40,016 bases of DNA from positions 1-40,016 of the forward strand of contig JAJDCU010000045.1 of assembly GCA_029260655.1 (NCBI GenBank), given 5' to 3'. The notes under the pieces are model-generated. The model saw only the letters and a program-made list of their open reading frames with translations. It had not been told where the DNA came from and did not search any database. The translations under genes were made by a program, and so were the position numbers. Position 1 is the stretch's first letter. Every line of letters begins with the position of its first letter. This DNA comes from Phycisphaeraceae bacterium. Lineage in GTDB: Bacteria > Planctomycetota > Phycisphaerae > Phycisphaerales > Phycisphaeraceae. Below are positions 2,759 through 29,025 of the stretch, piece after piece.

Positions 2759-2761
2759 TGT

Positions 2762-3808
2762 TTATCTCCTGTCGTCTTCAAGTACTCGCGGCGCTGCGGT
2801 TGGCACGCCGGGCGGGATCGGTTGGCCGAAGTCCGGGTTGTTAAGGATATCCCATTTGAAAGGTTGCAGTCGAATGTCACGGGCCCAGCCCGAGCCTTTA
2901 GACTTCGCGGCGTGGTAGATGATCCAGTTTGCCGGGCCATCGGCGTTACCCAGGTGTATAAAACTGGCATGCCCGGGGCCGAAGACCTGATCGGATTTCG
3001 CGAACACGGGCTGGGGGTGTTTGGTCCATGCGCCCGGGGCAAGCGGGTCGTCGCCGGTGAGCGTCAGCCGGCCCAGGCAGTAATCATCGGTCCAACCCCC
3101 GGCGGCGGAGAAGATCACGTGGACCTTGCCGCCGTGGCGGAGCACCTGCGGGCCCTCGTTTATGGCGAGATCACCTGTGCGCTCCCACGGCAGCGTTGGC
3201 TCACTGATAAGCACGCGCGGGCCGGCGATGGTCAACGGGTCGGACATCGGCGCGATGTACAGGTTCTGCTGCCCGTTATTATCGCCGGGCCAACCCGACC
3301 AGATAAAGTACAGGTTGCCGTCTGAGCTCTGGTAGCACGTGCCGTCGATGGCCCAGAGGTCGGTCTCGTCGTTGACCGGGCCGACGAGTTCGTAGGGCCC
3401 AGGGGGGTCGTCCCCTTCGCTGCGCAGCACGTACATCCGGTGATGTCGGTTGTCACCGTCGTCTGCGGCGAAGTAGATATACCAACGCCCATCGATCCGG
3501 TGCATCTCCGGCGCCCAGATATTCTGCGAGAAGGGGCCCAACTTAGGCGTGGTCCACACGACCGTCGGCTCGCCCTCAGTGATCAGGTGCAGGCGAGCGG
3601 ATCGCTTGATACGGATGCTGTTGCTTTTCGCGTAGCAGTAGTAAAACGATCGCTGGTGAAGGGTCACCCACGGGTCCTGGCCTTGTTCTGCGATCGGGTT
3701 GGTGAATGTGTTCGCCGGGTCATGCGGGGGCTGCGCCGCCGTGATGCCGGTGGCTGTCAACAGCGCCAAGGCGAAGGCCCCCAGGCTCGTGGCGGTGCGT
3801 AAGGCCAT
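2762..3808 (-). CDS. GH43-like family glycosidase (secreted)
   Basis: A 348-residue protein with an N-terminal signal peptide (MALRTATSLGAFALALLTATGITA). It looks like a five-bladed beta-propeller of the GH43 clan: GQDPWV (Asp45, likely catalytic base), NIWAPEMHRIDGRWYIYFAA, DLWAIDGTC (Asp that tunes the acid) and INEGPQVL (Glu, likely general acid), followed by GPGHASFIHLG. Such enzymes remove arabinose, xylose or related sugars from plant or algal polymers; the exact substrate cannot be read here. The start at 3808 is chosen because it begins a clean signal peptide; the frame stays open for another 130 codons upstream but that part is not signal-like and overlaps the divergent gene. It is first in an operon with the GHL10 gene. 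Confidence 0.85.
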   Translation of the reverse strand: MALRTATSLGAFALALLTATGITAAQPPHDPANTFTNPIAEQGQDPWVTLHQRSFYYCYAKSNSIRIKRSARLHLITEGEPTVVWTTPKLGPFSQNIWAPEMHRIDGRWYIYFAADDGDNRHHRMYVLRSEGDDPPGPYELVGPVNDETDLWAIDGTCYQSSDGNLYFIWSGWPGDNNGQQNLYIAPMSDPLTIAGPRVLISEPTLPWERTGDLAINEGPQVLRHGGKVHVIFSAAGGWTDDYCLGRLTLTGDDPLAPGAWTKHPQPVFAKSDQVFGPGHASFIHLGNADGPANWIIYHAAKSKGSGWARDIRLQPFKWDILNNPDFGQPIPPGVPTAAPRVLEDDRR

Positions 3809-3941
3809 AGCTCTATCGTACCTCGTCGGGCTCGGCAAGTACGTTCGGGGGAGTTGTCCCAGACGGGGCGGGCCCATTCGGGTAAAATGAATTGGCAAGG
3901 GTCGGATGAGAGGGGCCAGCACACACCAGGAGAAAACGGGC

Positions 3942-4859
3942 ATGAGCGGAAAGCGGACACGCCGAGAATATGCGTCGACATCGCAGGCCGGGCACGCGGC
4001 GGGGCAGGAAGTGGGGGCGGATTCTGAAGACGAGTCCGACACGGCCGCTACATTCTTAATCTCGCTTGCGCAGTGGTCGCTGCACAGGGCGTTTAACAGC
4101 GGCAAACTCGACAACCTGGACTTCGCAGCCACCGCGAAGGGCGAGTTTGGTATCGAGGCGGTCGAGTACGTCAACCAGTTCTTCATAGACAAGGCCACAG
4201 ACACCGACTACCTCGGCCAGATGAAGAAGCGGGCCGACGACCTGGGCGTCAAATGCCTGTTGATCATGTGTGACGGCGAAGGGCGATTGGGTGACCCGGA
4301 CGCCGCCGCGCGTTTGCAGGCAGTCCAGAACCACTACAAGTGGATCGAGGCGGCGAAGTTTCTTGGCTGTCATTCGATCCGCGTTAACGCCGCGAGTGAG
4401 GGCGAATACGACGAGCAGCAGAAGCTCGCCGCCGATGGTTTAAGAAAGCTCTGTGAATTCGCCGACACGCACGGGCTGGACGTCCTGGTCGAAAACCACG
4501 GGGGGCTGTCGTCCAACGGCCAGTGGCTCTCTGGCGTGATGAGGCTCGTTGATCACAGCCGTATCGGGACGCTGCCGGACTTCGGCAACTTCCGTCTGAA
4601 GGACGATCAGTGGTACGACCGCTATCAGGGCGTCGAGGAATTGATGCCCTACGCCAAGGCCGTCTCCGCCAAGTCGAATGTCTTCGACGACGCCGGCAAC
4701 GAGGCCGAGACCGATTACCTGCGGATGATGAAGATCGTCCTGGATGCGGGATATCACGGCTATGTCGGGATCGAATACGAAGGCAGCGAGCTCGGCGAGG
4801 CGGAAGGTATCGCTGCAACCAAGGCGCTGCTGGAGCGGGTACGCGGCGAACTGGCCTAA
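3942..4859 (+). CDS. Sugar phosphate isomerase/epimerase family TIM-barrel protein
   Basis: A 305-residue protein of the xylose isomerase-like TIM-barrel family (AP endonuclease 2 fold). Typical strands are [68 protein letters not shown] and [13 protein letters not shown]; the Glu, Asp and His in these motifs are the usual metal ligands. Members isomerise or epimerise sugars or their keto forms. The ATG at 3942 has AGGAGA nine bases upstream. The first 38 or so residues are charged and low in complexity; they contain RTRREY but no hydrophobic stretch, so despite the twin-arginine look it is not a convincing Tat signal. The gene is divergent from the GH43-like/GHL10 operon with 133 bp between starts, so a shared control region is likely. 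Confidence 0.8.
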
Positions 4860-4951: not shown

Positions 4952-6262
4952 CTAGCGCTTGCGAAGGAACCAGAAAGCTGCGAAGCAGGTCAACGCGAGT
5001 GTCCCCGGTTCAGGGACCGCGCTGGATGCCTGGGTCGGCGGCGGTGTTCCGGCGTTCCAGTTGCCAAGCACGACGTTGAGGTCTTCGATCCCGACAAAGC
5101 CGTCGGCTGTCGGGTCACCGGCGGTGAAGAAGCCGGGCAGGACAGTCTGGTTCCAGTTACCCAGGACGGCGTTTAGGTCTTCGATCCCGACGAATCCGTC
5201 TGCGTTGAGGTCGCCGGTGATCACGGGTCGGTCGGGATCACCTGTCGCGACAACGTCCACCCCGATGCCGAGGTTCGTGCCGGCGGAAATCGTGTCAGGT
5301 GCGTCGAGCCATTCGAGCCAGACGCTCAATGAATCGTCGTTGGGGCTGGTCGTGCCGGCGAGGAATCCCTGCACGCCGAGTCGCATCCCATTCGTATTCG
5401 TAAGGTCGATGCGGATGGTCGGGCTGTCGGCGGACCAGGTGGAGCCTGGGCTCTTGATCAGTTCGATCCACGAGCCGAGTTCATCGGGCGCGGGCAGGAG
5501 GTGTGCGTTGCGTGCTGTGGTGCTAGTTAGTTGGAGGGTCTGAATATCGCCGTTGGCGTCTTCATAACGGAGGATGTCGGCGTCGTAGACGGTAGAGGTG
5601 GAGAACATGCTCGATACCGTCATCATGCGGAGGCGGTCGTTGCCGGTGAACACACCGCCGGTGGCGAGGTTGATGTTCTGGTCGGCAGTGAAGTCAACGG
5701 TGAGGCCGACGGTGGTCTTACCGATGGGGGGGTCGGGGAACGATCGTGTGGTGGTGAGGCTTGCCTGTGAGCCGAAGTTGCCGACGATCTGGCTGAAGTA
5801 GCGTCCGAAGGCTCCGGTAGTATTGACGTCGCCTCTTGTGGTGGTGGGGATGAACTGTAGGCCGGCGGTCGTGCGGAAGGACGCGGACCCGACGACGCTG
5901 GTCCCAAGCTCCGCGCCGCCACCGCCGGGCTTCTGGTACACGGCTCGGAGGAAGGTGTTGGCGTGCATGTCAACGAAGGTGAGCGGGAAGCTGCCTGACC
6001 CGGGGACGTTGTCGAACGCCTCGACGATCTTGTGGTTGTGTCCGCCAACCAGTGTGCCGTTGTGAAAGATCGGGACCGCTGATTCCAACACGCCGCCGTC
6101 GGCTGCGCGTAGCGCGAATTGGCCGTTGTCGAAAAAGTGCTGGTCGCTGGCGTGCGTCGTCATCACCGCCAAGGACAACATAAACAACCCGGCACAAATC
6201 ATCGCCGCGGTGGAGTAAAAATCTTTCCGGGTGCTATTCACTGCGTTTCTCCCATACATCAT
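4952..6262 (-). CDS. Secreted PEP-CTERM protein with dockerin-type repeats, function unknown
   Basis: A 436-residue protein. A signal peptide (hydrophobic MICAGLFMLSLAVMTTHA) follows a basic N-terminus of about 20 residues. Residues 40-330 are an unrecognised, beta-rich domain containing several FHNG/GGHNH and TVGLTVDFT-like strands; no catalytic motif is obvious. Then come two dockerin-type calcium loops (DLNADGFVGIED, DPTADGFVGIED), each followed by LGNWN, a short TPPP linker, and VPEPGTLAL with a hydrophobic segment and RKR at the C-terminus. The protein should be exported and held at the surface by exosortase processing. GAGGA precedes the ATG. It is the last gene after the GH94/ABC group, 49 bp beyond the GH94 stop, so it may be a surface partner of that glucan-use locus. 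Confidence 0.75.
   Translation of the reverse strand: MMYGRNAVNSTRKDFYSTAAMICAGLFMLSLAVMTTHASDQHFFDNGQFALRAADGGVLESAVPIFHNGTLVGGHNHKIVEAFDNVPGSGSFPLTFVDMHANTFLRAVYQKPGGGGAELGTSVVGSASFRTTAGLQFIPTTTRGDVNTTGAFGRYFSQIVGNFGSQASLTTTRSFPDPPIGKTTVGLTVDFTADQNINLATGGVFTGNDRLRMMTVSSMFSTSTVYDADILRYEDANGDIQTLQLTSTTARNAHLLPAPDELGSWIELIKSPGSTWSADSPTIRIDLTNTNGMRLGVQGFLAGTTSPNDDSLSVWLEWLDAPDTISAGTNLGIGVDVVATGDPDRPVITGDLNADGFVGIEDLNAVLGNWNQTVLPGFFTAGDPTADGFVGIEDLNVVLGNWNAGTPPPTQASSAVPEPGTLALTCFAAFWFLRKR
5049..5215 (-). repeat. Dockerin-pair DNA repeat, copy 1
   Basis: Copy of a cassette found seven times in the window. The loops encoded are DLNADGFVGIED and DPTADGFVGIED. Confidence 0.7.
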
Positions 6263-6311
6263 TATTCCTCATGTCCGGCAGGCTTCAAGCATTTTTCACC
6301 CACCGAGTGCA

Positions 6312-8786
6312 CTATTTCATCACCACCTTGACCGTGTGCTCCGCTAAGGCCCCCGTCGGAGGCGGCAGGGTGTTGCCCGGGAGTAATTGCCCATCGAGCG
6401 TCACGCTGGAAATCGACAGGCCGGCGGGCGTGAGGCGGGAGACCTCTATATGGTAGACGTGCCCGCGGTAGCGGCGCGTCATCTTAAAGCCCGGCCAGTG
6501 TGACGGGATACACGGATCGATCAGCAGGCCCTCCCAGGTCGGGCGGACACCCATGATCGACTCCATCAATACACGGTAAACCCACGCGGACGAGCCTGTG
6601 TACCAGGTCCATCCGCCCCGGCCGTACAGCGGCGAGTCGGGGCCATCGACGTTGGCGGCGGTGACGTAGGGCTCGCACTGATAGAGCTTGGGGTCCATGC
6701 CGCGCTGAGGTGGGGACATCTTGCGGAACAGGTTCCACGCCTTGTCGGCTCGCTTGAGCTGGCACTCCATCTGGATGGCCCAGGCGGCGGCGTGCGCGTA
6801 GAGCCCGCCGTTTTCGCGTGTGCCGGCGGCGTAGCGTGTGAGATACCCGATGCGTGGATCAGGGGTTGTGTAAGCCGGTTGCAGCAGCACCGCGCCGTAG
6901 TCCCGGTAGAGGTGCTTCTCTAATGATTCAAGCACAGCGTCGCGGCGATCGTCCGGGACGATCCCGCTGAGGATCGACCAGGTCTGGGGGTTGAGGTGGA
7001 TCTTGCCTTCGCTGGCGGTGTGGCTGCCGACGAGGGCGCCGTCGTCGCAGCTCGCTGCCCAGTACCACTTGCCGTCCCAGCCGTGGGTATTGACAGCCTG
7101 CTTAAGGTTTTGCGCCTCGGCGCGGTAGCGATCGATGCGCTGCTGCTCATCTTTGGGCAGTGTGCCCAGTTCGATAGCTCGCTCGGCGGCCTCACAGAAC
7201 CCGCCCAGGATCATAAACAGGAACTGCCCTACCCAGACGCTCTCGCCTTTGCCGTCCCAGCCGGTGACGGAAAACCCGTCGTTCCAGTCCCCGGTCCCGA
7301 TCAGGGGCAGGCCGCGCTCGCTGCGCTTTGATAGCGATCGCTCGATCGCTCGGGCGCAGTGCTCGTACAGCGTGCCGGTGCAGGTGTCATCGGGCGACGG
7401 GTCGAGGTAGGGCGCGGTCTCCTTGAAGATCCCGAAGTCCGCGGTCTCCTTGAGGTAATTAACGGTGACGAAGGGCAGCCAGAGCAGGTCGTCGGAGAAC
7501 TGCGACTCGATCCCCTCTTCGGTGATCGGGTGCCACCAGTGCTGGACGTGGCCTGCGGCGAACTGGTGCGCCGCGTGGAGCATGATCTGCGCCTTGGTGC
7601 GCGTGGGGTCCAGGTGCAGGAACAACAGGCTGTCTTGCAGCTGGTCGCGGTAGCCAAAGGCCCCGCCTGTCTGGTAGTAGGCCGTCCGTCCCCAGATACG
7701 TGAGGACAGCGACTGATACTTCAGCCAGCAGTTGGCCATCAGGTCCACACCCGCGTCGGGGGTCTTGACCTGTGACCGGTCCATCCAGTCGGACCAGAAG
7801 CGATTGACTTTTTGCAGGGCGTCGTCGGCCGCGTCTGGCTGCTGGTAACGTGCGACCTGCTCCTGGGCTTGCTCCTGTGTCTTTGCCACACCGAGCGTGA
7901 AAGTGACCTGCTCGGACGCGCCGGGCTCCAACTCGATCGGTACGGACAGGCTTGCCACCGAATCATCCCAACGCCCAGTCGTCTTGGCGACGTACCCGCC
8001 TTCACGCAGGGCCATCGGCGACGCAGACGAGCCGTACTGCCCGATGAACGCCTCCTTGCTCCCCGAGCACATCGACGCGGACTGGTCCACGCCGTGGAAC
8101 GCCACCATGTCCCAGTCCCGGTTCCAGTGCTGGCCCTGGTCGTTCTTGATGTCCCACATCCGCTTGGTCGCGTAGACCGCCCGGTGGTCGTCGGCGAGCT
8201 TCGTCTCCAGGAACGTCTTATGAAACTCGCGGTGCGTGTCCGGCGCTGTGCCAAGGCACCATTCAAGATAGGACCACAACGACAGCCTCCGCCGGCGCTT
8301 GCCCGTATTCGTGATCGTGATCCGCCACAGCTCCACGGATTCGTCCGGTGGGACCGTCAGGGTTAACTCCGTACGGACGCCGTCGTGCTCGCTGATGATC
8401 ACCGAGTACCCGATCCCGTGTCGGCATTCGTACCGGTCCATCGCGTGGCAGGTAGGCTTCCACGAGGGCGACCAGAAGGCCCCCGAGTCTTCGTCGCGCA
8501 CGTACAAATACTTGCCGCAGGAATCACTGACCAGGTCCTGTTCCCAGCGTGTGATCCGGTTGAGCCCGGCATGCGTCTGCCAGGAATACCCACCGCCGAC
8601 CTGCGAGACGACCAAGCCGTATTCGCCGGGGCAGATTACGTTGACCCAGGGCTTGGGCGTGTCCGGCCGGGTAATGACGTACTCGCTGCCGTCCGCCGTA
8701 AAGTAGCCGTAGCCGTTGTCGAAAAGATGATCCGACGGGACATCGACTTTGACGGGCATGAATGCGGGTTTAGTCACTCGTGTCAC
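6312..8786 (-). CDS. GH94 family glycoside phosphorylase
   Basis: An 824-residue cytoplasmic enzyme with no signal peptide, about the length of cellobiose and chitobiose phosphorylases. The N-terminal beta-sandwich shows GYFTADGSEYVITRPDTPKPWVN and SQVGGGYSW, followed by the helical barrel with GAFGYRDQLQD, HWWHPITEEG and GTGDWNDG; the two aspartates of DWND (residues 500 and 503) include the family's general acid. The family splits beta-linked disaccharides or oligosaccharides with phosphate, giving sugar 1-phosphate. Specificity cannot be decided: the neighbouring GH144 argues for beta-1,2-glucans, but known beta-1,2-oligoglucan phosphorylases are longer (about 1,100 residues). The GTG at 8786 is chosen because GGAG lies six bases upstream; an ATG nine codons further in is a possible alternative. 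It lies 48 bp after the permease gene. Confidence 0.88.
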   Translation of the reverse strand: MTRVTKPAFMPVKVDVPSDHLFDNGYGYFTADGSEYVITRPDTPKPWVNVICPGEYGLVVSQVGGGYSWQTHAGLNRITRWEQDLVSDSCGKYLYVRDEDSGAFWSPSWKPTCHAMDRYECRHGIGYSVIISEHDGVRTELTLTVPPDESVELWRITITNTGKRRRRLSLWSYLEWCLGTAPDTHREFHKTFLETKLADDHRAVYATKRMWDIKNDQGQHWNRDWDMVAFHGVDQSASMCSGSKEAFIGQYGSSASPMALREGGYVAKTTGRWDDSVASLSVPIELEPGASEQVTFTLGVAKTQEQAQEQVARYQQPDAADDALQKVNRFWSDWMDRSQVKTPDAGVDLMANCWLKYQSLSSRIWGRTAYYQTGGAFGYRDQLQDSLLFLHLDPTRTKAQIMLHAAHQFAAGHVQHWWHPITEEGIESQFSDDLLWLPFVTVNYLKETADFGIFKETAPYLDPSPDDTCTGTLYEHCARAIERSLSKRSERGLPLIGTGDWNDGFSVTGWDGKGESVWVGQFLFMILGGFCEAAERAIELGTLPKDEQQRIDRYRAEAQNLKQAVNTHGWDGKWYWAASCDDGALVGSHTASEGKIHLNPQTWSILSGIVPDDRRDAVLESLEKHLYRDYGAVLLQPAYTTPDPRIGYLTRYAAGTRENGGLYAHAAAWAIQMECQLKRADKAWNLFRKMSPPQRGMDPKLYQCEPYVTAANVDGPDSPLYGRGGWTWYTGSSAWVYRVLMESIMGVRPTWEGLLIDPCIPSHWPGFKMTRRYRGHVYHIEVSRLTPAGLSISSVTLDGQLLPGNTLPPPTGALAEHTVKVVMK

Positions 8787-8834
8787 AGCATACTCCAAAG
8801 AAAACAACGAACGAACTCTGGCTGTCGGGGCGCA

Positions 8835-10187
8835 TCACCCCTTGAGGCCGGTCATGGAAATCCCCTCGATGAATGTTCTCTGGGCCAGGAAGAACAAAAC
8901 GACAATAGGCAGCACGACCAGCGAGCTGGCGGCCATCAGGAAGTGCCACTGCGTCCCGCCGGTTTGGCTCTTGTAGGCTTGCAAGCCAAGGGCCAGGGTG
9001 AAGTCCTTTTCATCGGTCAGATAAATCAGCGGGCCCAGGAAGTCGTTCCAGGTGCCCATGAACTGGAACAGCGCCACGACGGCGATCGCGGGTTTGGCAA
9101 GCGGGAGGATGATCTGCCAGAAGATACGCAACTCGCTGCACCCGTCGATCCGCGCCGACTCGGACAGGTCTTTGGGGATCGTACGGAAGAACTGCCGCAG
9201 CAGGAAGACGTTGAACGCCCCGGCGAAAAAGGTCGGGACCCAAAGCGGCTTGAGCGTGCCGATCCAACCGAATTCTTTGAACATTGTGAACAGAGGCACC
9301 ATCACCACTGGGAACGGGACCATCATGGTCGCCATTACGACCAGGAAGACCTTATCGCGCCCGGGCCAGTCGATCCGGCTGAACCCGTAGGCCACCAGCG
9401 TGCTGGAGATGACCGTGCCGATCACGGTCAACACGCAGAGGATTACGGTGTTCTTCAGGTATGACGGGAACCTCTTCATGGCATAGATCGCCTTGCCGAA
9501 GTTGCCCCAGCGAAAGGCGGTGTGCTTGGACAGCGCCCCTGGCTCGACCTGGCGGCGCTCGACCTGCACGTGCGCCAGTTCCGATCGGTCGTCCCAGCCG
9601 ATGACGGTCTTGATGAGCGATTCGCGGGGCACAGCCAACGTCCGCGACTGGGCAAACGAGGCGCTTAGGTCATCGGTGGTCTGGTCATATACCCGGCGGA
9701 CATCCGCGGTATCGACCGAAACACGCGTGGTGTAGCCTCCGTCGTCAATAATCACCACGTCTATCGAGCCATCGGAGTCAAGCGTCCCGTCCGGGTCGGA
9801 CACCTGGGCCGAGTACCAGTCGCCGTCAATGTTGGCCTGGAAGTGAAAGTTCACCGTGACGTCGACGTTCTCGCCGTGAAGCACATCGGCTGACGGCATA
9901 ACCGGCACGCGCTGCCCGTCGATCTCCATCAGCCACTGGTAGGCGACCTGAACGGGGACCGATGTGTTTGGGGCCACGTCACCGGATATCTCCTCTACAC
10001 CAACCGTCGTTTCCCGGCCGTCCTCGGTCAGCACCCACTGGTACGGCAGCCATTTCGGGGGCGAACTCATCGCCTGATCGATCGGCTTGACCGCTGTGGA
10101 CAGCATCCACAACAACGGGACCGAGAAGATCGCGGCGCCCACGAGCAGCGCGGCATACACCATCAGTTTGCGGAAGCGTCGTGCCAT
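8835..10187 (-). CDS. Carbohydrate ABC transporter permease (MalG type) with large insertion
   Basis: A 450-residue inner-membrane permease; the family is usually about 270-300 residues. TM1 is residues 8-29 (YAALLVGAAIFSVPLLWML) and is followed by the familiar TAVKP. Between roughly residues 45 and 215 there is an extra, hydrophilic, beta-rich domain that should face the periplasm, after which the canonical fold resumes (RFPSYLKNTVILCVL, then the remaining membrane segments). The EAA loop that docks the ATPase is intact: ESARIDGCSELRIFWQIILPLAKPA. The C-terminus ends LKG, normal for the family. Its stop codon shares one base with the next upstream gene's coding order (TGATG junction at 10187). 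It works with the other permease and the binding lipoprotein; no ATPase gene is in the window, so a shared ATPase elsewhere is likely. Confidence 0.92.
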   Translation of the reverse strand: MARRFRKLMVYAALLVGAAIFSVPLLWMLSTAVKPIDQAMSSPPKWLPYQWVLTEDGRETTVGVEEISGDVAPNTSVPVQVAYQWLMEIDGQRVPVMPSADVLHGENVDVTVNFHFQANIDGDWYSAQVSDPDGTLDSDGSIDVVIIDDGGYTTRVSVDTADVRRVYDQTTDDLSASFAQSRTLAVPRESLIKTVIGWDDRSELAHVQVERRQVEPGALSKHTAFRWGNFGKAIYAMKRFPSYLKNTVILCVLTVIGTVISSTLVAYGFSRIDWPGRDKVFLVVMATMMVPFPVVMVPLFTMFKEFGWIGTLKPLWVPTFFAGAFNVFLLRQFFRTIPKDLSESARIDGCSELRIFWQIILPLAKPAIAVVALFQFMGTWNDFLGPLIYLTDEKDFTLALGLQAYKSQTGGTQWHFLMAASSLVVLPIVVLFFLAQRTFIEGISMTGLKG

Positions 10188-11074
10188 CAGCCGTCACCCC
10201 CGTAGTGCACATGCTTGCGGGACAGGGCGGTCACCCCCCAGGTCAGCAGTACGATCACGACGAACAGCACCCAGGCCATCGCGCATGCGTAGCCCATGTT
10301 CAGGTACCGAAAGGCGTTGTCGTAGAGGTTGATCGCGTAGAACAGGGCCGAGCGGTTCGGGCCCGGGCCGTCGAGCATGACGTACGGCCGTACGAACTCC
10401 TGCAGCGCGCCGATAATGCCTATCACGAGATTGAAGTAGATCGCCGGGGAGATCATCGGGACGGTGATGTGCAGCAACTGCACCCGTGGCGAGGCCCCGT
10501 CGATGTCGGCCGATTCGTAGAGCGATCGCGGCACGTCCTGCAGCGCGGCGAGGAAGATAACGATGGTCCCGCCGACCTGCCAGACACCCGAGAGCACCAG
10601 CGTGGGCTTGACCCACTGCTCATCTGTCAGCCAGCCTGGGCCCTTCAGGCCCAGCAGCGAGATCGCGTGGTTGATCAGGCCCAGGTCGCCGTTGAAGATC
10701 CACAGCCAGATCATTGAGACCCCAACCAGTGGGACGATCGACGGCAGGAAGTACACGGTGCGGAACACCGAGCGTCCCATCACCTTCTGGTTCAACAGCA
10801 CCGCGATCAGCAGGGCCAGGATCAATCCCAGCGGGATCGAGAAGACAGCGAAGTAGACGGTGTTGTAGACCGAGATCCAGAAAACCGAGTCGCCGACCAT
10901 CTCCCGATAGTTCAGCGTGCCGACCAAGGCGGGCTCGTTGAGGATGTCGTAGTCGCAAAAGGAATAGTAAAGCGACGCCGCTAGTGGGTAGATGCCGAAG
11001 ATGGCGAAGCCGATGATCCACGGGCTGATGAACCCGACGCCCTTGAGCAGGTTGTGCCGTTCGCCTCGCGTCAT
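10187..11074 (-). CDS. Carbohydrate ABC transporter permease (MalF/UgpA type)
   Basis: A 295-residue inner-membrane permease of normal length with six membrane segments (first WIIGFAIFGIYPLAASLYYSF, last CAMAWVLFVVIVLLTWGVTAL). The EAA motif is ESADIDGASPRVQLLHITVPMISPA. N-terminal FISPWIIGF and the YFLPSIVPLVGVSMIW segment are typical of sugar importers of this class. The start overlaps the binding-protein gene by four bases (ATGA) and the stop overlaps the MalG-type permease by one base, so these three genes are translationally coupled. The substrate is likely an oligosaccharide made by the GH144 enzymes and then cleaved by GH94. Confidence 0.93.
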   Translation of the reverse strand: MTRGERHNLLKGVGFISPWIIGFAIFGIYPLAASLYYSFCDYDILNEPALVGTLNYREMVGDSVFWISVYNTVYFAVFSIPLGLILALLIAVLLNQKVMGRSVFRTVYFLPSIVPLVGVSMIWLWIFNGDLGLINHAISLLGLKGPGWLTDEQWVKPTLVLSGVWQVGGTIVIFLAALQDVPRSLYESADIDGASPRVQLLHITVPMISPAIYFNLVIGIIGALQEFVRPYVMLDGPGPNRSALFYAINLYDNAFRYLNMGYACAMAWVLFVVIVLLTWGVTALSRKHVHYGGDG

Positions 11075-12552
11075 CGGCTACTCCATTCGGCGAGTCGCTG
11101 GTCACTGACAAGGTTCCACCGGTTTAGCACGCGGTCGAGCCGGATCTGCATGCGCCGCTGGGCGTTGTCAAGGGCGTCCTTGGCGGTGGCATCGCCGGCG
11201 TAGACACGGTCGGTAGCGACCTGGACCTCGACGGTGTACTCGGCCCAGATCGGCGTGCGCGGTACCCAGAAAGCGTTGGGGCTGGCTGCCAGTTCCATGA
11301 AGACCTCGATCGCCGGGTTCGGGTGCCGATCCACGAAGTCATCGCTGACCTGTGCGAGGGGGCTGAACTTGCGTTGCCCAAGCGTCAGCTTCTCCATCGC
11401 CGACTGACTGTTGACATAGCGGATAAACTCAAACGCCTCATTGGGGTGGCGTGCTCCGCGCGGGATCACCAGGACGTCGGCCTCGATCAGCGCTACCGGG
11501 CCGTCGGCGTGTTCGACCGACGCCGGGAAAGCCGCGGCACCCCAACGCATACTCGGGGTGAACTGATCAATGAAGTTGTGCATCCACACGCCCTGTTGAA
11601 CCATCGCGACTTGGCCTGAGAGGAACGGGTCCTGCGGCGAGGCGAAGTTGCCGAACGACTGCCCGAAGCGGTCGAGGTTCCGCCGGCCAAACTTCCGGGC
11701 GTAACTACCGAACCACTGGTAGGCCGCGATGTTGGCGGGAGAAGCAGTGGTCACCTGTGACTCACCATCCCACAACTCGCCGTCGAACCAGTAACCGAAC
11801 AGCGGCATGTACCACCCGGGGATCTTCGGCGAAAAACCCAGTTGGACGATGTCGAAGTCCTTGGCTTCTCGCTCTTGCTTGGTCAGTTCAGGGAAACGTA
11901 CGCGGAACTGTTCGCCGTCTCGCTCGATCTGGACGATTGTCAGTTGCTCGGCCATGGCATCGAGTTCCGCGATGGTGCGCGGTGGTTGGTCGGGGTCGAG
12001 CCCGGCCTGCTCGAACATCCGCTTGTTCCAGAACAGACCGATCGACCCCGGGGTCGACGGCAAGGCCCACAGGAATCCGCGGTACCGGCACAACTCCCAG
12101 AACGCAGGGATGTAGTCCGCCTGGCTCAGACCCGCGTCACGGGCGTACCCATCCAACGGCGTCAATGCACCCTTCTCGGCAAACACGTTGATCGTGTGCG
12201 TCCACAGCCCCGCCACGTCCGGCGGATTCCCGCCCGCGGTCGACAGCAGAAGCTTCTGATCAACCCCGCTGACCGATAGCATCTTCACGAAGATGCGGTC
12301 TTGCGAGGCGTTGAAGTCGTCCACCACCGCACGCATCGCCTCGGCCTCGAAGCCGGTCCACTTCTCCCAATAGCGCACAATCACACGCCCGTCCGGCGTA
12401 TGACTTGGCTGATCATCACCGCAGCCCTGCAAACCAACGAGTAGCCCCGCCAGCAGCGTGCTCAAACACAGGCGCAGGGCCCACGCCGCGCCGCCGTGTC
12501 TCCCAACAGCGCCGTTAAGGCTTGAAGTCTTGTTCAACGTAACGCCTGCCAA
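11071..12552 (-). CDS. Sugar ABC transporter substrate-binding lipoprotein
   Basis: A 493-residue extracytoplasmic solute-binding protein of family 1 type. A long basic N-region and hydrophobic segment end in a lipobox, LVGLQGC, with lipidated Cys44. The mature part starts with VIVRYWEKWTGFEAEAMRAVVDDFNAS, then GNPPDVAGLWTHTINVFAEKG, LPSTPGSIGLFWNKRMFEQAGLDPD, and near the end AFEFIRYVNSQSAMEKL, all classic for sugar-binding proteins. The start is TTG: it has GGAG six bases upstream, where GGAG runs into the TAG stop of the GH144 gene, so the two genes are coupled. It delivers the sugar to the two permeases that follow. It should be anchored in a membrane facing the periplasm. Confidence 0.92.
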   Translation of the reverse strand: MAGVTLNKTSSLNGAVGRHGGAAWALRLCLSTLLAGLLVGLQGCGDDQPSHTPDGRVIVRYWEKWTGFEAEAMRAVVDDFNASQDRIFVKMLSVSGVDQKLLLSTAGGNPPDVAGLWTHTINVFAEKGALTPLDGYARDAGLSQADYIPAFWELCRYRGFLWALPSTPGSIGLFWNKRMFEQAGLDPDQPPRTIAELDAMAEQLTIVQIERDGEQFRVRFPELTKQEREAKDFDIVQLGFSPKIPGWYMPLFGYWFDGELWDGESQVTTASPANIAAYQWFGSYARKFGRRNLDRFGQSFGNFASPQDPFLSGQVAMVQQGVWMHNFIDQFTPSMRWGAAAFPASVEHADGPVALIEADVLVIPRGARHPNEAFEFIRYVNSQSAMEKLTLGQRKFSPLAQVSDDFVDRHPNPAIEVFMELAASPNAFWVPRTPIWAEYTVEVQVATDRVYAGDATAKDALDNAQRRMQIRLDRVLNRWNLVSDQRLAEWSSR

Positions 12553-12555
12553 TGG

Positions 12556-14463
12556 CTACTCCAACATCAGATCGCCTAGACGGATACGCCCCGCCTGCTC
12601 CTTGAATCGCCAGTTCAGCTTGACCGATGAATCGCCCCGAGCGTTTACGCTCGTCACCGCGATCGATGATTGCATCTTTAAGCCCGCCTCGGGGGTAACG
12701 CCCAATACGCGCCAGGGGATCGCCGCACGGACTTCGTAGCCGCTGTCGGTCTGTTTGACGGTCTGCGTGATCTCGCCGTGACGGTTGCCGAACCACTCCC
12801 AGGCCTTGTCTGTTATGGAAAAGCCGAACTGAAAATCATCATCACTCCCCCAAACCAGTCCATCGTCTTGCGGATCAAGATAAAGCTCGACACAGTCCTG
12901 CTCATGCAAGCTTTCGGCATCAGAAACATTCACAACCTGACCATCGACGACGTGGATGACGACGTATAGCGCCTGCTTGTCCCAAGCGAGCGCGAACCGG
13001 GCCGAGACTTGGTTGTCTTTGCGGGGTTGGCCTTTTTCCAGGCAGTCCTCGGCGGTCACGGCGTGCCAGTCGGCCTGCTCCCAGCCATACGACACGGGCC
13101 GAACACGCGCGGTGCGGTTGCCCTTGTTCCAACTTGCGCTCAATAACTCGGAAGGGATCGACTCCAACCCGTACACCGAGCTGTCCGGATCCTCAACCTC
13201 GGGCTCGGGGCGGAACCCGGCCAAGCCCATCGCACGCTGGACCTCTGGGTTGGCCATGAAGTGTTTCCACACGAGGCCGCTTCGGTGGTTTTCGATCATC
13301 ATCAGCGACACCCCGACGTCGATTCCGATCACGTGGTCCGCGGTGTAGCCGGTCTGGGGGTTGAAGGCGTCGACGAATCCGTAGCGTTTCCAGACCCGCT
13401 CGCCGTAGGTCTCTTTCATGTAGCGGAGCGTGCGGATGCACTCGTCCGGGAGGAAGGGCACAGACCCTGCGGCGGCGCAGGGTACGACGGTGCCGTCGAT
13501 GTTCCCCGTGGCGGGCGGGCCGCCCCATGCGGTATATCCCCCGGCGTAGTCCGACGCGGTGATGCCCCAGAGGTCTTCGCCGAAATGGGGAAATCGTTTG
13601 GCGAGCTTGATACACATCTGCCGGTGGGCGCGTGTGGCGAGCACGGAGTTTCGGTAGTAATTGGCGACGTCGTCTCGCTTACCGCGGTAATCGATGAAGG
13701 CGTGTGAGAACTGATGGGTGAATAGCGGCGGGCAGGCCATGAACGTGAGCCCGTCGTAGGTGATGACCGGCTCTCGCTTCCAGGTCTTCCATGCCTGGGG
13801 GGGCAGCGGGTGCGTCCCCGAGCCCAGGCCCATCAGGTAGATCATCGTGTGTTCGCTGTACCCGTCCCAGGTCGCATTCAGAAACCCGCTCTCGGGTGAC
13901 CAACCCATGGTCAGAGTCCTGCCCTTGCCTAGCATCCAGGGCCAGTCCACGCGCTCATAGATCTTTGTCGCCAGTTCCTCGACCTCCGAGCCCTTGTAAT
14001 ACTGCCGTGCGGTCAGCACGCCGGCCAAGAGCAGCCCGGTGTCGATCGACGACAGCTCACAGTTCCACGCACGCTCGCCTGTCTTGTTGTCGACAAAGTG
14101 GTAGTAGAACCCGTGCTCATGGGGCATCTTCTCCCATATAAATCGCAGGGTGGTCAGGACCCGTTGATAGGCCTGGTCGTGCTCGATCCACCCGCGCTCA
14201 TCGGCGATGCACAAGGCCGCGAGGCCGTAACCGGTCGAGGCGATGCTGGCGACGTTGAACTTCTCACTGCCATCGGCCGGTGCGCGGTCGGCGACCAGGC
14301 CGGTGCTGGGTTCGGCCTGTTCAAGGAAAAAAAGGAAACAGCGTCTTTGAAGCTCGCCTAGAAACGCATCGTCCACTTCGTGCCCGGGTTTGGCCGTGTC
14401 TTGAACCGGCTCGGGGGCCGATGCGCACGCCTGGAAACCCAGAAAGAAGAGGATGCACCCCAC
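12556..14463 (-). CDS. GH144-family (PF10091) endo-beta-1,2-glucanase-like lipoprotein with CBM9-like domain
   Basis: At least 635 residues. Residues 25-450 match the glucoamylase/GH144 family (alpha/alpha toroid): ASTGYGLAALCIADERGWI, FYYHFVDNKTGERAWNCELSSIDTGLLLAGVLTARQYY, WDGYSEHTMIYLMGLGS, FTHQFSHAFIDYRG, GTVVPCAAAGSVPFLP, KRYGFVDAFNPQTGYTADH. Characterised members cut beta-1,2-glucan. Residues 480-635 look like a CBM9 domain (FALAWDKQALYVVIHVVD, DCVELYLDPQDD, VRAAIPWRVLG). The N-terminus is a lipoprotein-type signal ending FQAC. The GTG at 14463 has no ribosome site; eight codons upstream an in-frame ATA at 14487 lies eight bases after AGGAG and would add IRTTSAIA, making a complete basic signal peptide. 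The gene is first in a coupled operon with the ABC transporter. Confidence 0.88.
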   Translation of the reverse strand: MGCILFFLGFQACASAPEPVQDTAKPGHEVDDAFLGELQRRCFLFFLEQAEPSTGLVADRAPADGSEKFNVASIASTGYGLAALCIADERGWIEHDQAYQRVLTTLRFIWEKMPHEHGFYYHFVDNKTGERAWNCELSSIDTGLLLAGVLTARQYYKGSEVEELATKIYERVDWPWMLGKGRTLTMGWSPESGFLNATWDGYSEHTMIYLMGLGSGTHPLPPQAWKTWKREPVITYDGLTFMACPPLFTHQFSHAFIDYRGKRDDVANYYRNSVLATRAHRQMCIKLAKRFPHFGEDLWGITASDYAGGYTAWGGPPATGNIDGTVVPCAAAGSVPFLPDECIRTLRYMKETYGERVWKRYGFVDAFNPQTGYTADHVIGIDVGVSLMMIENHRSGLVWKHFMANPEVQRAMGLAGFRPEPEVEDPDSSVYGLESIPSELLSASWNKGNRTARVRPVSYGWEQADWHAVTAEDCLEKGQPRKDNQVSARFALAWDKQALYVVIHVVDGQVVNVSDAESLHEQDCVELYLDPQDDGLVWGSDDDFQFGFSITDKAWEWFGNRHGEITQTVKQTDSGYEVRAAIPWRVLGVTPEAGLKMQSSIAVTSVNARGDSSVKLNWRFKEQAGRIRLGDLMLE

Positions 14464-14484
14464 AGCGATGGCACTTGTCGTTCT

Positions 14485-14499
14485 TATGACCGCTGCTCC
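14485..14499 (-). promoter_or_regulatory. Ribosome site pointing to an ATA start for the GH144 gene
   Basis: AGGAG followed by CAGCGGTC and then ATA in frame. Starting here would give a normal lipoprotein signal; the downstream GTG has no such site. ATA starts are rare, so this needs direct evidence. Confidence 0.35.
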
Positions 14500-14551
14500 T
14501 TCCGCATTTCGTCGGTTCAGACGATGGGTATAGGTTTTCAGGCATCCGCCG

Positions 14552-14565
14552 CTTAGGCCGCTAAG
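14552..14565. promoter_or_regulatory. Inverted repeat upstream of the GH144/ABC operon
   Basis: CTTAGGCCGCTAAG has perfect five-base arms and lies between the upstream stop and the GH144 start, next to a TTGACT that could be a -35 on the minus strand. It could be an operator, but no second copy was found. Confidence 0.25.
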
Positions 14566-14576
14566 TCAAGCCCAAT

Positions 14577-17027
14577 TTACGTGTGAGATTCGTCCCCGGG
14601 CTCCCACAGACTTAACGGCGGCGCGTAAGACCGGGCCGCGTCTGCTTGGAACGATCCGGGCAGCGAACTTGTCACACCCAACGATGTGAAGGCCGATCTG
14701 CTCCCGCGTTGCCAGGCGGCGAGAGCCGAGCGCTGCGATGTGCTCATCGAACTATCGGCCGGATCGGACACGGTTGATTTGCTATCGGTACCCGCTACCG
14801 AGGCGGTAACCGGTTCGGCGGTCACAGCCGTAGTCTCCATTGTGGTGGCGCTTAGCTCTGAGGTGACGGTGGGGGGGGTGCCGGCGTTCCAATTGCCCAG
14901 CACCATGTTCAGGTCTTCGATCCCGACAAACCCGTCGCCCGTCGGGTCCCCGGCGAAGAAGTCGCCCGGTGCGACGTTCTGGTTCCAGTTACCCAGCGAC
15001 AGGTTCAGGTCTTCGATCCCGACGAACCCGTCCTTGTTCAAGTCGCCATCGAGGATGTCATTGGGGAAGACAAGGTCCAGCGCCGCGTCGACTTCGGGCA
15101 GGTCACTTAGGAAGTGGCTGTCGTCGTAGAGGTAGTCCATATACGACATGGTCGCCAGGGAGGTGTTCCACAGGTCGTTGTTGGCCGGGTGGCTGATGGG
15201 TTCGGCGGCCCCGGTCGCCCAGATCGCCGAATCGCTTAAGCCAAACGGGCCGTGCAGGTTGTGCTGCAGGCTGTTGCGTAGCGCCGCTTCTGCAAACTGC
15301 GGCTCACCCAGGAAGCTAAACGCCACCGACCAGGGCATAAAGACGTCGGGCTCGCCGTGATTGTTGTAAGCGCTGAACTGCTGATACTGCGTTCCGCTGG
15401 CCCCGGCATCCGGCTGAAGGAACAGGCCCCGACCGAGCTGCTCGAACCGGTCGTGCACGTCCTTCTGGTACTTCACCGCGTTGTCGAATGGGTTGGTGTT
15501 CTGGCTCGGGTTGGGGTAATTATCATTGCCGCGGTCGTTGGTGTCGACGTAAAGGTCGAACAGCCACTGCACGAACGGCGGGCGGAACTGGGTCATCGAG
15601 TGGTTGAACTGTGCGTTTGCGGGATCGACCAGGAAACTCTCTGCCCGAACTGTGCCGGAGTGGAAGTTCGTGGTGATATCGACGTGGTTGACCTGCGCCA
15701 GGTGCGCCGCCAAGGAGATTGACCATATCTCCCCGCCGTAGCCGTCGTATCCGGCGTTGATGAAACCGTTGGTGTTGTGATTGTAGGCGAACGACCAGCC
15801 GCCGCCGGGCAACTGGAACGAGGCGAAGTCGAACCGGTCCAGCAGGGCTTCGATACTGGTTTTCAACCCTGCGTCGATCCCGGCCTGCGACTTGTAGCCG
15901 TACAGCGCCAGGAACATAAACGCGCCGTCGATGACGGATTCTTCGGGGTTCGTCGGGGTGAAGGTCACGCGGTCCATGTAGCGGGCTGGGAGGTAGCCCC
16001 CGCCCATCGCGGTTTGGTTATCCATCCCGGTGTTCATGGTCACGACCATCTGCGTGAGCATGGCGTCGGCCTGGGCCCGTGTGACCCAGCCGCGTTCGAT
16101 CGCGCCGGGGAGCAGCTTGATCAGGGACGACGTCGTATTCATCGCCATGACCCGGCCGTTCTGGGCGTTGGTTTCCAGCGCGCCGGTATCGGGGTCGGTT
16201 GCTCCCCAAAGGCTCCTGAACTGGCGCTCGGCCAGCCGTCCGATGAGGTCGTTGATCGGCGCCGTCGCCGGGTCCAGCGCGCCGCCGGGCTCGACGAAGA
16301 CCATGTCGTCGATGATGACCTGGCCGTTGACCGCCGAACCCTGGTTGGCCTCGACCAAAAGGGCGAACTGCCTGGCCCGTGTTAAGTCCGGGCTGCCCGC
16401 GATCACCCAGCCGGGGGCCGCCAGGTCTAAGGGGACCACGACCTCGGTCCACACATCGGCCGCGCCGATCGTGTAGTTCTGGCTCGCCCGGTGCGAATTG
16501 CTGTCACGGTAGTCCTTGACCTCGAAGCGTAAGGTGAAGTTCGAGCCGGTCTGGTTGCGCACAAAGAAGCGGACCTCGTCGAACGCCGTGAGGTCGCGCG
16601 TGTCGGTGTAGAGCGCGTTGGGCTCGACGCCGCCCAGCGCGGTGATGACGAACCCGAACGAGTTTTGTGCCACGCCGACATTCATCTTGATCGCGCCGTT
16701 GCCGGTGCGGATCAGCGCCGGGTCGGTCGTGTGCGATACGGCCACGTTGAATGCGAGGCTGGTGTTACCGCCGAAGCGGTTCATCAGGTTGTTCCCGCCG
16801 GAGACGGTCTCACCGTCCAGCAGCGGGACGTGGGAGATGTCTGTTGATTGTGTTGTCAGAGCCGAGGCCATCTGATCGGGGGGCTGCGAAACGGATGCCG
16901 GGGATACAACCGACCCGCTTAACAACAGACGCGGCTCGAGCGGCTCAAGCCCGGGCCATATGCCATGGTGAGCATCCGGTTTAGGCCTTTCCCCCTCCTG
17001 AGTTGTCACGCACTTCCTCTGTAACAT
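14577..17027 (-). CDS. LEPR-XLL secreted protein with GH144-like domain and dockerin repeats
   Basis: An 816-residue protein. The N-terminus carries GLEPLEPRLLLSG, the LEPR-XLL export motif of large planctomycete surface proteins. Residues 65-250 form a carbohydrate-binding-like beta-sandwich (AFDEVRFFVRNQ, TEVVVPLDLAAPGW, QVIIDDMVFVEPGG). Residues 260-640 look like a distant relative of the GH144 toroid: LIGRLAERQFRSLWG, ERGWVTRAQADAML, DGAFMFLALYGYKS, GYDGYGGEIWSISLAAHL, FRPPFVQWLFDLYVD, ANNDLWNTSLATMSYMDYL. Two dockerin-type loops follow (DLNKDGFVGIED, DPTGDGFVGIED), then a 90-residue Ser/Thr/Ala-rich tail with no PEP-CTERM signal, the only such dockerin protein here. The ATG is preceded only by AGAGGAAGT, a weak ribosome site. 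It lies directly upstream of the GH144 operon, which suggests a related glucan substrate. Confidence 0.7.
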   Translation of the reverse strand: MLQRKCVTTQEGERPKPDAHHGIWPGLEPLEPRLLLSGSVVSPASVSQPPDQMASALTTQSTDISHVPLLDGETVSGGNNLMNRFGGNTSLAFNVAVSHTTDPALIRTGNGAIKMNVGVAQNSFGFVITALGGVEPNALYTDTRDLTAFDEVRFFVRNQTGSNFTLRFEVKDYRDSNSHRASQNYTIGAADVWTEVVVPLDLAAPGWVIAGSPDLTRARQFALLVEANQGSAVNGQVIIDDMVFVEPGGALDPATAPINDLIGRLAERQFRSLWGATDPDTGALETNAQNGRVMAMNTTSSLIKLLPGAIERGWVTRAQADAMLTQMVVTMNTGMDNQTAMGGGYLPARYMDRVTFTPTNPEESVIDGAFMFLALYGYKSQAGIDAGLKTSIEALLDRFDFASFQLPGGGWSFAYNHNTNGFINAGYDGYGGEIWSISLAAHLAQVNHVDITTNFHSGTVRAESFLVDPANAQFNHSMTQFRPPFVQWLFDLYVDTNDRGNDNYPNPSQNTNPFDNAVKYQKDVHDRFEQLGRGLFLQPDAGASGTQYQQFSAYNNHGEPDVFMPWSVAFSFLGEPQFAEAALRNSLQHNLHGPFGLSDSAIWATGAAEPISHPANNDLWNTSLATMSYMDYLYDDSHFLSDLPEVDAALDLVFPNDILDGDLNKDGFVGIEDLNLSLGNWNQNVAPGDFFAGDPTGDGFVGIEDLNMVLGNWNAGTPPTVTSELSATTMETTAVTAEPVTASVAGTDSKSTVSDPADSSMSTSQRSALAAWQRGSRSAFTSLGVTSSLPGSFQADAARSYAPPLSLWEPGDESHT
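14881..15047 (-). repeat. Dockerin-pair DNA repeat, copy 2
   Basis: Encodes DLNKDGFVGIED and DPTGDGFVGIED. This copy is internal, followed by a long Ser/Thr-rich tail instead of VPEP. Confidence 0.7.
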
Positions 17028-17102: not shown

Positions 17103-17966
17103 TCAGAACCCCGGCGTCGTGGTCGTGCCGCCCTTATTGGGGTTGCCCCACGCGAACCAGACGTCGTTGCCGTACGGGTCTTTCTTTGCGGTAGTACTGC
17201 CCGGGGCCCGATACTCGTCGGCGCTCATGTGCTCGCTGTGCCCGTCGAGGAAGCTGAGGTTGCCACCGTCGCCGTGGCGCTCGATCCGCTTTTGGCCTGC
17301 GGGCGGCTCGTAAACATTGCCGTCGATCACCTGAGGCCAGTCCAGGTCAATCGCAACCACGACCCAGGTCGTCGCCGGCAGCGAATTGATCATGCGGTCG
17401 ACGATCCCGTCGGCGTTGTTGAGGTTGTCTGGCAAGCCGAAGGTGCCCGCATTGTCGTTGAGCTTGTAATCGGTGTGGAATGAGATCGGGTCTCCTCCCG
17501 GGTCTGTGCCCCAGACCCTTTTGCCCGCCACGAGTGGCGACTGCCCGCTGAACTTCGACTCGTAGATCCCATTACCCAGGAAGCTCGCATTCCTGACCGG
17601 GGGGTCCCAGAGCTCACCGGCGGTATCGGTGTCCAACGCGGTGGGGCAGATGAAAACATCCTTGTTGCCGCCGAGGTACTCGTCGAGCATCTCGATCTGC
17701 TCGCCCTGTCGCCCGAAACCCGGTATCAACGGCAGGCGGTCGTCCCATTCGCCGGTGTAGTTGATGATCCCGGTCGCGAGCTGCCGCAGTTGGGTGAGGC
17801 ACTGCGCCCGCATCGCGGTCTTGCGCGCCGCGCCCAGCGCCGGCAGGAGGATCCCGACCAGCAGCGCGATGATGGAGATGACGACCAGCAGCTCGATCAG
17901 GGTGAAACCCATTGATCCGGCCTTCTTCCCTGTAGGCTTGGGGGGATGGGTAAGTTTGCTTGGCAT
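17103..17966 (-). CDS. Pseudopilin-like protein with prepilin N-terminus and DG motif
   Basis: A 287-residue protein. After a short basic leader it has [30 protein letters not shown], the type IV/type II prepilin cleavage and methylation site plus membrane helix. The C-terminal half has the layout of the large planctomycete pseudopilin family (DUF1559-like): [10 protein letters not shown], then [16 protein letters not shown], the characteristic DG-containing motif. These proteins are abundant in Planctomycetota; their real role is unclear, and a type II secretion-like link is usually assumed. The start at 17966 has AGGAG nine bases upstream. No other secretion gene is nearby; it lies between the glucan locus and the PEP-CTERM genes. 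Confidence 0.85.
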
Positions 17967-18109: not shown

Positions 18110-18877
18110 TCAACCCTGCCGACGCCGCAGCACGGCCAGGCCGCCCAGGCCCATCAGCGCGAGGCTGGCGGGTTCGGGGGTCACCACGACGTTGTTGAAC
18201 GTGGTGGTCACAGCGCTGGTGGTTAGCGGGGCGGTTGGGATGTTCTGGGTATACACGCCCGCGTTGTGGTTTAGCGGGCCACCTTCGATGTTGTCCCAGT
18301 TCAACAGGCCGCTGGACTCCAGCCCGGCGCCGCGATCGATGATGTACTCGATCGTGCCGGCCACGTTAAGGAAGCCGCTAGAGGTGTACACCATCTTCAT
18401 GAAGATGCTTGTGCCTTGGACATACCCGTTAGGGGCTCCGGCTCCGGCGAAGCTGAAGAACGGCGCCCCGCCGCCGAACGCGGCGATCTCACCGTTGTCC
18501 TTGATGATGAACTGCACGTCGCCGGTCACCGGTGCGACGGCGCGCAGGCCGGCCTCGGAACCGGCGTCGGTGGCGGACAGGGTCACGTCCGCTTCGATCG
18601 AAAAATCATCGAGGAAGGTGAAGATGTGGTCCGACACACCGCCGTTACTACTCACGGACGCGTCGTGCCGGTTGGCCCAGCCGCCGGTCCCATACGCGCT
18701 CTCGGCGAACTGTACCGAGTCGATCCCGTTCGACGTCGTGACAAGCGTGCTGCCGGGGAAGTCGTTGAACACGCGCTCGTTGATGACGTTCAGGTCGAAC
18801 GCCGCCGACGCCGTTTGAACAACACTCAGTCCCAATACCGCTACGCCAGCCAATTTCAAAACACTCATGCCTTTCAT
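18110..18877 (-). CDS. PEP-CTERM protein, LamG-like, no dockerin
   Basis: A 255-residue exported protein. The signal peptide is MKGMSVLKLAGVAVLGLSVVQTASA. The mature domain resembles a LamG/concanavalin-like beta-sandwich: WANRHDASVSSNGGVSDHIFTF, FSIEADVTLSATD, IFMKMVYTSSGFLN, TIEYIIDRGAG, and ends TTTFNNVVV. The C-terminus is TPEPASLALMGLGGLAVLRRRQG, a PEP-CTERM signal. It is a shorter relative of the next gene upstream, which shares WXNRHXAXXSSNGG-like and KMVY blocks but carries a dockerin pair. The start at 18877 is chosen for AGGAGA seven bases upstream and for a clean signal peptide. Its function is unknown; binding of glycans at the surface is possible. Confidence 0.78.
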   Translation of the reverse strand: MKGMSVLKLAGVAVLGLSVVQTASAAFDLNVINERVFNDFPGSTLVTTSNGIDSVQFAESAYGTGGWANRHDASVSSNGGVSDHIFTFLDDFSIEADVTLSATDAGSEAGLRAVAPVTGDVQFIIKDNGEIAAFGGGAPFFSFAGAGAPNGYVQGTSIFMKMVYTSSGFLNVAGTIEYIIDRGAGLESSGLLNWDNIEGGPLNHNAGVYTQNIPTAPLTTSAVTTTFNNVVVTPEPASLALMGLGGLAVLRRRQG

Positions 18878-25326: not shown

Positions 25327-25354
25327 GCGGGTGTCGGCTCCAATGCCAGCAACT

Positions 25355-29022: not shown

Positions 29023-29025
29023 GTA

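Follow-up and report, generated by a model that had tools for sequence, protein, structure and literature searches.

We analysed a contig of 40,016 nucleotides (JAJDCU010000045.1, assembly GCA_029260655.1; hereafter the window) from a Phycisphaeraceae bacterium of the Planctomycetota, which is contig C45 of a 3.5 Mb, 95% complete host genome (G000). We propose, with a probability of about 80% and judging from sequence, that a gene cluster on its minus strand (4952-17027) serves to scavenge beta-1,2-glucan made by other organisms. The computed basis of this reading is the order and kinship of the genes, the residues of the active sites, a predicted fold and a conserved gene neighbourhood. Beta-1,2-glucans are rare polymers that matter in symbiosis and pathogenesis, and few enzymes that degrade them are known.

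The cluster starts with a LEPR-XLL surface protein of 816 aa (14577-17027; NF012209 LEPR-8K, 22.8 bits, cut-off 17) and a secreted enzyme of glycoside hydrolase (GH) family 144, a predicted endo-beta-1,2-glucanase (SGL) with a C-terminal CBM9 domain (12556-14463; PF10091 232 bits, CBM9_1 59 bits) and, by eye, a weak lipobox (...GFQAC). Three genes of an ABC importer follow: a solute-binding protein (SBP; 11071-12552, SBP_bac_1), a permease of the MalF/UgpA type (10187-11074; PF00528, UgpA-like) and one of the MalG/UgpE type (8835-10187; PF00528). The last core gene encodes a stand-alone GH94 enzyme, a predicted 1,2-beta-oligoglucan phosphorylase (SOGP) of the type found in cyclic beta-1,2-glucan synthase (CGS) (6312-8807; PF17167 391 bits, PF06165 266 bits). 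Every gene named in the original prediction was present, all on the minus strand, and no ABC ATPase lies within the cluster; the single match to the MalK-type domain PF17912 in the host genome is on contig C43. The core genes had also been described as overlapping. The gap lengths limit true overlap to the three transporter genes (-4 bases between SBP and MalF-type permease, -1 between the permeases), whereas the GH144 and GH94 genes lie 3 and 27 bases off; the LEPR-XLL and GH144 genes are 113 bases apart, and 49 bases separate the GH94 gene from the next gene downstream.

In the proposed pathway, the secreted GH144 enzyme with its CBM9 domain and the surface LEPR-XLL protein would hydrolyse beta-1,2-glucan, whether linear or cyclic, through an inverting mechanism, yielding sophoro-oligosaccharides. 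These would be imported by the SBP and the two permeases, driven by the genome's single MalK-type ATPase. Inside the cell, the GH94 enzyme would phosphorolyse chains of at least three glucoses from the non-reducing end, giving glucose 1-phosphate and finally sophorose. It would probably act as a dimer whose pocket is closed by the neighbouring subunit, as in cellobiose phosphorylase (CBP), and a LacI protein would regulate the locus.

Kinship and acceptor site of the GH94 enzyme

The GH94 protein has 831 aa from a TTG start and 815 aa from the first in-frame ATG; the previously reported 824 residues fall between the two. It contains the catalytic and supersandwich domains of the family and equivalents of D760 (the catalytic Asp, here D510) and H924 (the phosphate-site His, here H672). 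Its best solved match is CGS (8rf9) at 548 bits, of which 504 are for the GH94 domain, and it aligns in one piece with CGS residues 2003-2799, with one PF06165 stretch. The scores against other solved phosphorylases were 446 bits (cellobiose), 415 (chitobiose), 240 (cellobionic acid) and 65 (laminaribiose/cellodextrin).

We found a GH94 match at E 1e-100 or better in 96 of 397 genomes of the class, and sorted the matches into three groups. T1 comprises stand-alone enzymes with 42-46% identity to the window GH94, at 28 loci of which four have partial matches. Matches within frames of CGS length form T2 (37-43%; 12 loci fetched), and T3 holds the remaining stand-alone matches (30-36%; 30 loci fetched). 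The fetched T3 and CGS loci are part of those matched, and four cut or odd matches (G051:C163, G109:C252, G120:C175, G367:C146) were left unsorted. In a tree of 78 rows, made by a quick search with SH-aLRT as its only support measure, the window GH94 and 26 T1 stand-alones formed one set (SH-aLRT 99). This set joined the CGS domains (SH-aLRT 100), leaving outside 3qde and the rows annotated as chitobiose phosphorylase (ChBP). The tree was built without SOGP rows, the host's second GH94, the second GH94 of L109 and the partial T1 loci L061 and L062. An 822-aa frame at a contig start (L063) was placed among the CGS domains and is probably a cut CGS. We then enlarged the tree with 21 GH94 rows from 20 stand-alone loci of a genome scan, using 12 of the 26 T1 rows and again no SOGP rows. 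The split from the CBP-like rows (99) and the unity of the CGS domains (100) were kept. L141 has two GH94s, one of which grouped with the CBP-like rows, and L144, labelled Acidobacteria, fell inside T1. The GH94 of L143, a scan locus, is identical to that of L042 from the same class.

The acceptor site points in the same direction. In LpSOGP, sophorose at subsites +1/+2 is bound by Gln621, Asp631, Tyr1004, Asp760, Arg907 and Arg916, and small Gly/Ala residues open subsite +2, which is occupied in CgCBP by Arg362 (both as described in PMC5309861). The window GH94 has the equivalents of both Arg916 and Tyr1004, as do 26/26 T1, 14/14 CGS and 2/2 SOGP rows (the partial loci L061 and L062 excluded). 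Tyr1004 occurs in none of 32 T3 rows and none of five CBP/ChBP references, and Arg916 in one and none, respectively; the five references carry Leu and Lys instead of the pair. The CBP loop that plugs subsite +2 is missing in the nine printed rows, which cover the window, T1, CGS and SOGP. Relevant positions of the window enzyme are the motif YYQTGGAFGYRD (residues 377-388), the acid D510, R664-E665, H672 and Y736. The motif pattern itself is partly circular, as the genome scan was seeded with two such motifs, and was not used as evidence. With Arg and Tyr as in SOGP and the plug loop absent, chains of at least three beta-1,2-linked glucoses are therefore the likely substrate.

A grouping with cellobiose enzymes had been named as a possible refutation and was not found in the tree; the laminaribiose enzyme was compared by score only (65 bits). 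Both the tree and the residues spoke against CBP as an identity for the window GH94, which lacks the plug loop with Arg362 and the Lys-Glu at subsite +1. The original prediction had also taken the short length of the GH94 as a sign of a new specificity or of disaccharide use. We reject this argument, since the missing stretch is one N-domain (with reference to the SOGP structure in PMC5309861): the window GH94 has one, and SOGP and CGS have two. Its nearest kin are CGS domains, and subsite +2 is predicted to be open. From the single N-domain we infer a dimer. The host's second GH94 (L002, 295-2967, 890 aa) carries neither Arg916 nor Tyr1004, and its best solved match scored 83 bits only.

Predicted endo-glucanases and conserved neighbourhoods

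The GH144 enzyme is a member of its family, and its nearest solved relative is XcSGL of Xanthomonas campestris (8xul, 237 bits), reported to be specific for beta-1,2-glucan (PMC12102758). It has E204 as general acid, F248 and Y310, and D141 at the candidate base. All of 25 GH144 rows share the Glu, Phe and Tyr, and most have Asp or Glu at the base position. The enzyme is 57-67% identical to the GH144s of three members of the same bacterial family and 31-36% identical to the other 21 aligned.

The LEPR-XLL protein had been called GH144-like. It has no Pfam match and no significant single-sequence match in the Protein Data Bank (PDB), and the likeness was seen by profile and fold comparison. An N-terminal beta domain is followed by a predicted (alpha/alpha)6 barrel (~250-658) and dockerin-like repeats. 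Against the GH144 family, hhalign gave a probability of 97.1 (E 5.5e-11, 365 columns). When a profile of the protein was compared to all PDB chains, XcSGL was the best match (E 4.4e-4, profile positions 213-359 only), followed by a dockerin (0.012). In an alignment of six LEPR-type and 16 GH144 domains (22 rows), seven columns were invariant, three of which are the Glu, Phe and Tyr of the SGL clan, defined in PMC12102758 by Glu239, Phe286 and Tyr367 of XcSGL. The LEPR-XLL protein has E433, F485 and Y548 at these positions and D367 at the candidate base. An AlphaFold2 model of residues 250-658 reached a pLDDT of 90.8 and a pTM of 0.93, from an alignment that included GH144 rows, which may favour that fold. 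In a fold comparison with this barrel, SGL structures (GH144, PF10091-type, GH189/CGS and others) took ranks 1-15 with Z 29.9-42.4, ahead of the next fold at 21.0. A first whole-protein model from five rows was poor (pLDDT 47) and was not used. By its predicted barrel and its Glu, Phe and Tyr, the protein belongs to the SGL clan. Within the clan, GH144-type structures (Z 40.9-42.4) and GH189 (8wy1, Z 40.5) are about equally close in fold, and the barrel is 16-21% identical to the 16 GH144 domains. Most pairs between groups of the clan are <20% identical according to PMC12102758, and because the observed identity is near this range, the LEPR-XLL protein may represent a GH family of its own. The N-terminal domain matched two endoglucanase H structures (2lro, 1v0a) at E ~0.05. 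We take these to be CBM11; the matches are too weak for that assignment and serve as a hint only.

We ran neighbourhood profiles built in this analysis on fetched stretches of 3.8-20 kb. GH144 genes were found at 23 of the 28 T1 loci, SBPs at 12 and permeases at 13. The 30 T3 loci, whose GH94s are CBP-like, have no GH144 or SBP gene; permeases occur at one and LacI-type genes at three. A Fisher p of 1e-11 treats related loci as independent and is a yardstick only. At the 12 CGS loci the GH144 profile gave four weak matches to the CGS's own middle domain and none beyond CGS itself, and one locus had a LacI-type gene. Outside the class, an SGL-type gene lies in the fetched flank of 11 of 18 stand-alone GH94 loci. 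The loci with such a gene carry the labels Omnitrophota, Bacteroidota, Neomarinimicrobiota, Ignavibacteriota, Mycoplasmatota, Acidobacteriota, Thermotogota, Auribacterota and Chlorobiota, which come from metagenome-assembled genomes and may be wrong. The underlying scan of named genomes kept 80 of 593 confirmed stretches and is no census. Twenty of the 80 were counted as stand-alone, and 60, including L172 (686 aa), as frames that are cut or of CGS length. L143 and L145, among the 20, are Phycisphaerae near T1 members, and with them the SGL count is 13/20.

Long LEPR-XLL homologs (44-48% identity) occur in four genomes of the class, three of them of the window's family. In two of these loci, L083 and L084, LacI, GH144 and LEPR genes accompany GH94 frames of 1599 and 1133 codons, respectively. 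The GH94 of L084, from the same family, is a clear SOGP (613 bits to 5h3z), and that of L083 has the same acceptor residues. From the L084 comparison, the LEPR and GH144 surface enzymes appear to go with SOGP in a relative but with a CGS-type GH94 in the window. L083 and L084 would present a natural phosphorylase swap, with kinship shown for L084.

The original prediction, that secreted endo-glucanases and a GH94 at this locus act on beta-1,2-glucan, is backed by the tree, the acceptor residues, the neighbourhoods and the fold, on grounds other than those it gave. More broadly, we give even odds to the view that stand-alone CGS-type GH94s are widespread, single-N-domain and probably dimeric 1,2-beta-oligoglucan phosphorylases that link the dimeric disaccharide phosphorylases to the two-N-domain SOGP and CGS, and that the LEPR-XLL protein founds a new GH family in the SGL clan. 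If our reading of the locus is right, there would be another build of oligo-beta-1,2-glucan phosphorylase, in many phyla, and the proposed N-domain duplication of SOGP would become testable. The clan would likely gain a new family, and the Phycisphaerae loci would be assigned a substrate. As a separate observation from the scan, L161 (Massilia mucilaginosa) has a GH94 frame of 1277 aa, placed among CGS domains in the tree, and opposite to it lie genes for a LacI protein, an SBP and an SGL.

Known systems, the importer and alternative readings

Among the closest known systems is the SGL cluster of Ignavibacterium album, in which PMC8861115 reports a pair of GH144 genes, an ABC importer complete with SBP, and the GH94 IALB_1177. 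The latter is regarded there as homologous to the C-terminal SOGP domain in a CGS and is expected to release sophorose; we found no further paper on it in the literature searched. A GH35 transferase is also part of that cluster, and its SBP is said to be homologous to that of Listeria (PMC8861115), whereas the window has a family-specific importer, the LEPR-XLL protein of the SGL clan and PEP-CTERM proteins. Listeria innocua Lin1839-1841 likewise joins an ABC SBP to a GH94 acting on sophoro-oligosaccharides (PMC3960220, PMC12369401). Lin1839 is an SOGP with an extra N-terminal region (PMC5309861), unlike the window GH94. CGS, the nearest solved sequence kin of the window GH94 and alike in the acceptor Arg and Tyr, has its GH94 domain fused to a glycosyltransferase, a cyclase domain and a second N-domain (PMC10901819), while the window enzyme stands alone. 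Weak phosphorolysis of linearised glucan by a CGS GH94 domain is cited in PMC3960220. XcSGL (PMC12102758) shares the Glu, Phe and Tyr with the window GH144, which differs from it by carrying a CBM9 domain.

Several observations weigh against the proposed function, besides the GH144 rows behind the LEPR-XLL model. SOGP (5h3z) is absent among the 20 solved matches of the window GH94 at E 0.001, so that the likeness to SOGP rests on few residues; the Gln of YYQTGGAFGYRD is one column off Gln621, and the Arg907 stretch of SOGP is absent. The firm placement of the window GH94 in a clade of its class held in the 78-row tree and was lost when other phyla were added: it then joined the T1 clade without support, and the stand-alone enzymes formed an unresolved grade. 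No GH144 was found at the T1 loci L049 and L050 (~20 kb fetched) or, on shorter stretches of 5-11 kb, at L045, L061 and L062. L082 has LEPR, GH144 and LacI genes and no GH94 within 20 kb, and L085, with a LEPR homolog outside the family, has no other profiled gene in 20 kb. The window SBP is not Lin1841-like (24.8 bits, versus 153 for 4r9f). Finally, the Listeria innocua cluster has a GH3 beta-glucosidase, whereas the host genome has no GH3 match that could split sophorose, and we rejected a GH3 beta-glucosidase as a component of the pathway.

The importer is the weak link of the beta-1,2-glucan reading. Its MalG-type permease has an insert of ~150 residues between the first two transmembrane segments (TM1-TM2) that is absent in 14 aligned relatives and occurs in 6 of the 397 class genomes (the window's included), all of one family. 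The six other copies of the insert (L221-L226, in five genomes) come with an SBP and permeases at 47-63% identity, and their fetched 18-20 kb contain no SGL or GH94 match, a further point against the proposed function. The window SBP is 47-58% identical to these importers versus 36-42% to those at T1 loci, and the MalF-type permease 59-63% versus 41-49%; because of this kinship, we consider the importer as probably recruited within the family. By path length, the SBP tree also places the window nearest to L221-L226, without support. It is possible, if rather doubtful, that the locus serves beta-1,2-glucan and its importer, recruited elsewhere, carries other cargo (e.g. manno- or mixed oligosaccharides) or is broad. 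Genes beside the related importers fit such cargo (GH130 adjacent in L226, GH2 beta-mannosidase-like and GH5 near in L224, another GH2 near in L225), as does the best solved relative of the SBP, 4r9f MBP1, presumably a mannan-oligosaccharide binder. However, the importer genes sit almost gapless between those for GH144 and GH94, related transporter genes occur at 12-13 of the 28 T1 loci and at several loci of other phyla, and the identity of the MalG-type permease to T1 loci (54-61%) is no lower than that to the family copies (50-56%).

Two other explanations were weighed. That the GH94 is a phosphorylase of a new acceptor or linkage specificity, acting on a disaccharide or hetero-oligosaccharide, would be in keeping with its identity of at most 46% to class relatives, with the missing Arg907 stretch and with the fact that the literature searched, which excluded most subscription journals, reports no assay on any stand-alone enzyme of the CGS type. 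We regard this as improbable, since the window GH94 matches SOGP and CGS in its acceptor Arg and Tyr and its open +2 motif, and SGL neighbours recur across phyla. Kinship to the domain of the glucan-making CGS could also mean that the cell uses the locus to make or remodel beta-1,2-glucan of its own. This is very improbable: no CGS was seen in the 95% complete host genome, where the only PF10091 match is the GH144 gene and the GH94 frames are 840 and 893 aa only, and an importer, a LacI protein and secreted cutters fit catabolism. Scavenging of beta-1,2-glucan made by others remains our preferred reading.

Flanking genes and dockerin-like repeats

Judged by its relatives, the block extends upstream of the given end to position 21373, across minus-strand genes for a pseudopilin-like protein with an N-terminal methylation motif (17103-17966; TIGR02532 21.9 bits, cut-off 16.3), a PEP-CTERM secreted protein (18110-18913; PF07589 26.6 bits), a second PEP-CTERM protein recognised by eye from its translation, without Pfam match and with a dockerin-like repeat (19011-20198; motif match 19245-19268), and a LacI-family regulator that likely controls the locus (20294-21373; Pfam LacI and Peripla_BP_3). 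At L083, a pilin-like gene adjoins the LEPR homolog, and PEP-CTERM and dockerin-like genes are also there. In the fetched flanks, a LacI-type gene is near 23 of the 28 T1 loci and three of the four LEPR-homolog loci (L082-L085). At the downstream end, 4952-6262 (minus strand) encodes a PEP-CTERM-like protein, again by eye and without Pfam match, with two dockerin-like repeats (motif matches 5081-5104 and 5177-5200). PADLOC gave no match on two neighbour genes.

The dockerin-like motif DGFVGIED is near-invariant. It occurs 11 times in the window (5081-27359; 0 expected) and 128 times in the host genome, with 0 occurrences of the reversed pattern. A cohesin partner for these repeats was rejected, as PF00963 has no match in the genome.

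Elsewhere in the window, a second sugar-type locus (23710-37211) encodes a DUF4874/DUF4832 protein, a Spherulin4 protein and a GFO/IDH/MocA oxidoreductase, together with PEP-CTERM proteins and a GntR regulator. By eye, it also holds a second protein resembling the DUF4874/DUF4832 one (32488-33903) and one like a sodium symporter. On the other side of the cluster, GHL10 and GH43 genes adjoin on the minus strand (1514-4204); the true start of the GH43 gene is probably later, because its frame overlaps a xylose-isomerase-like gene on the plus strand.

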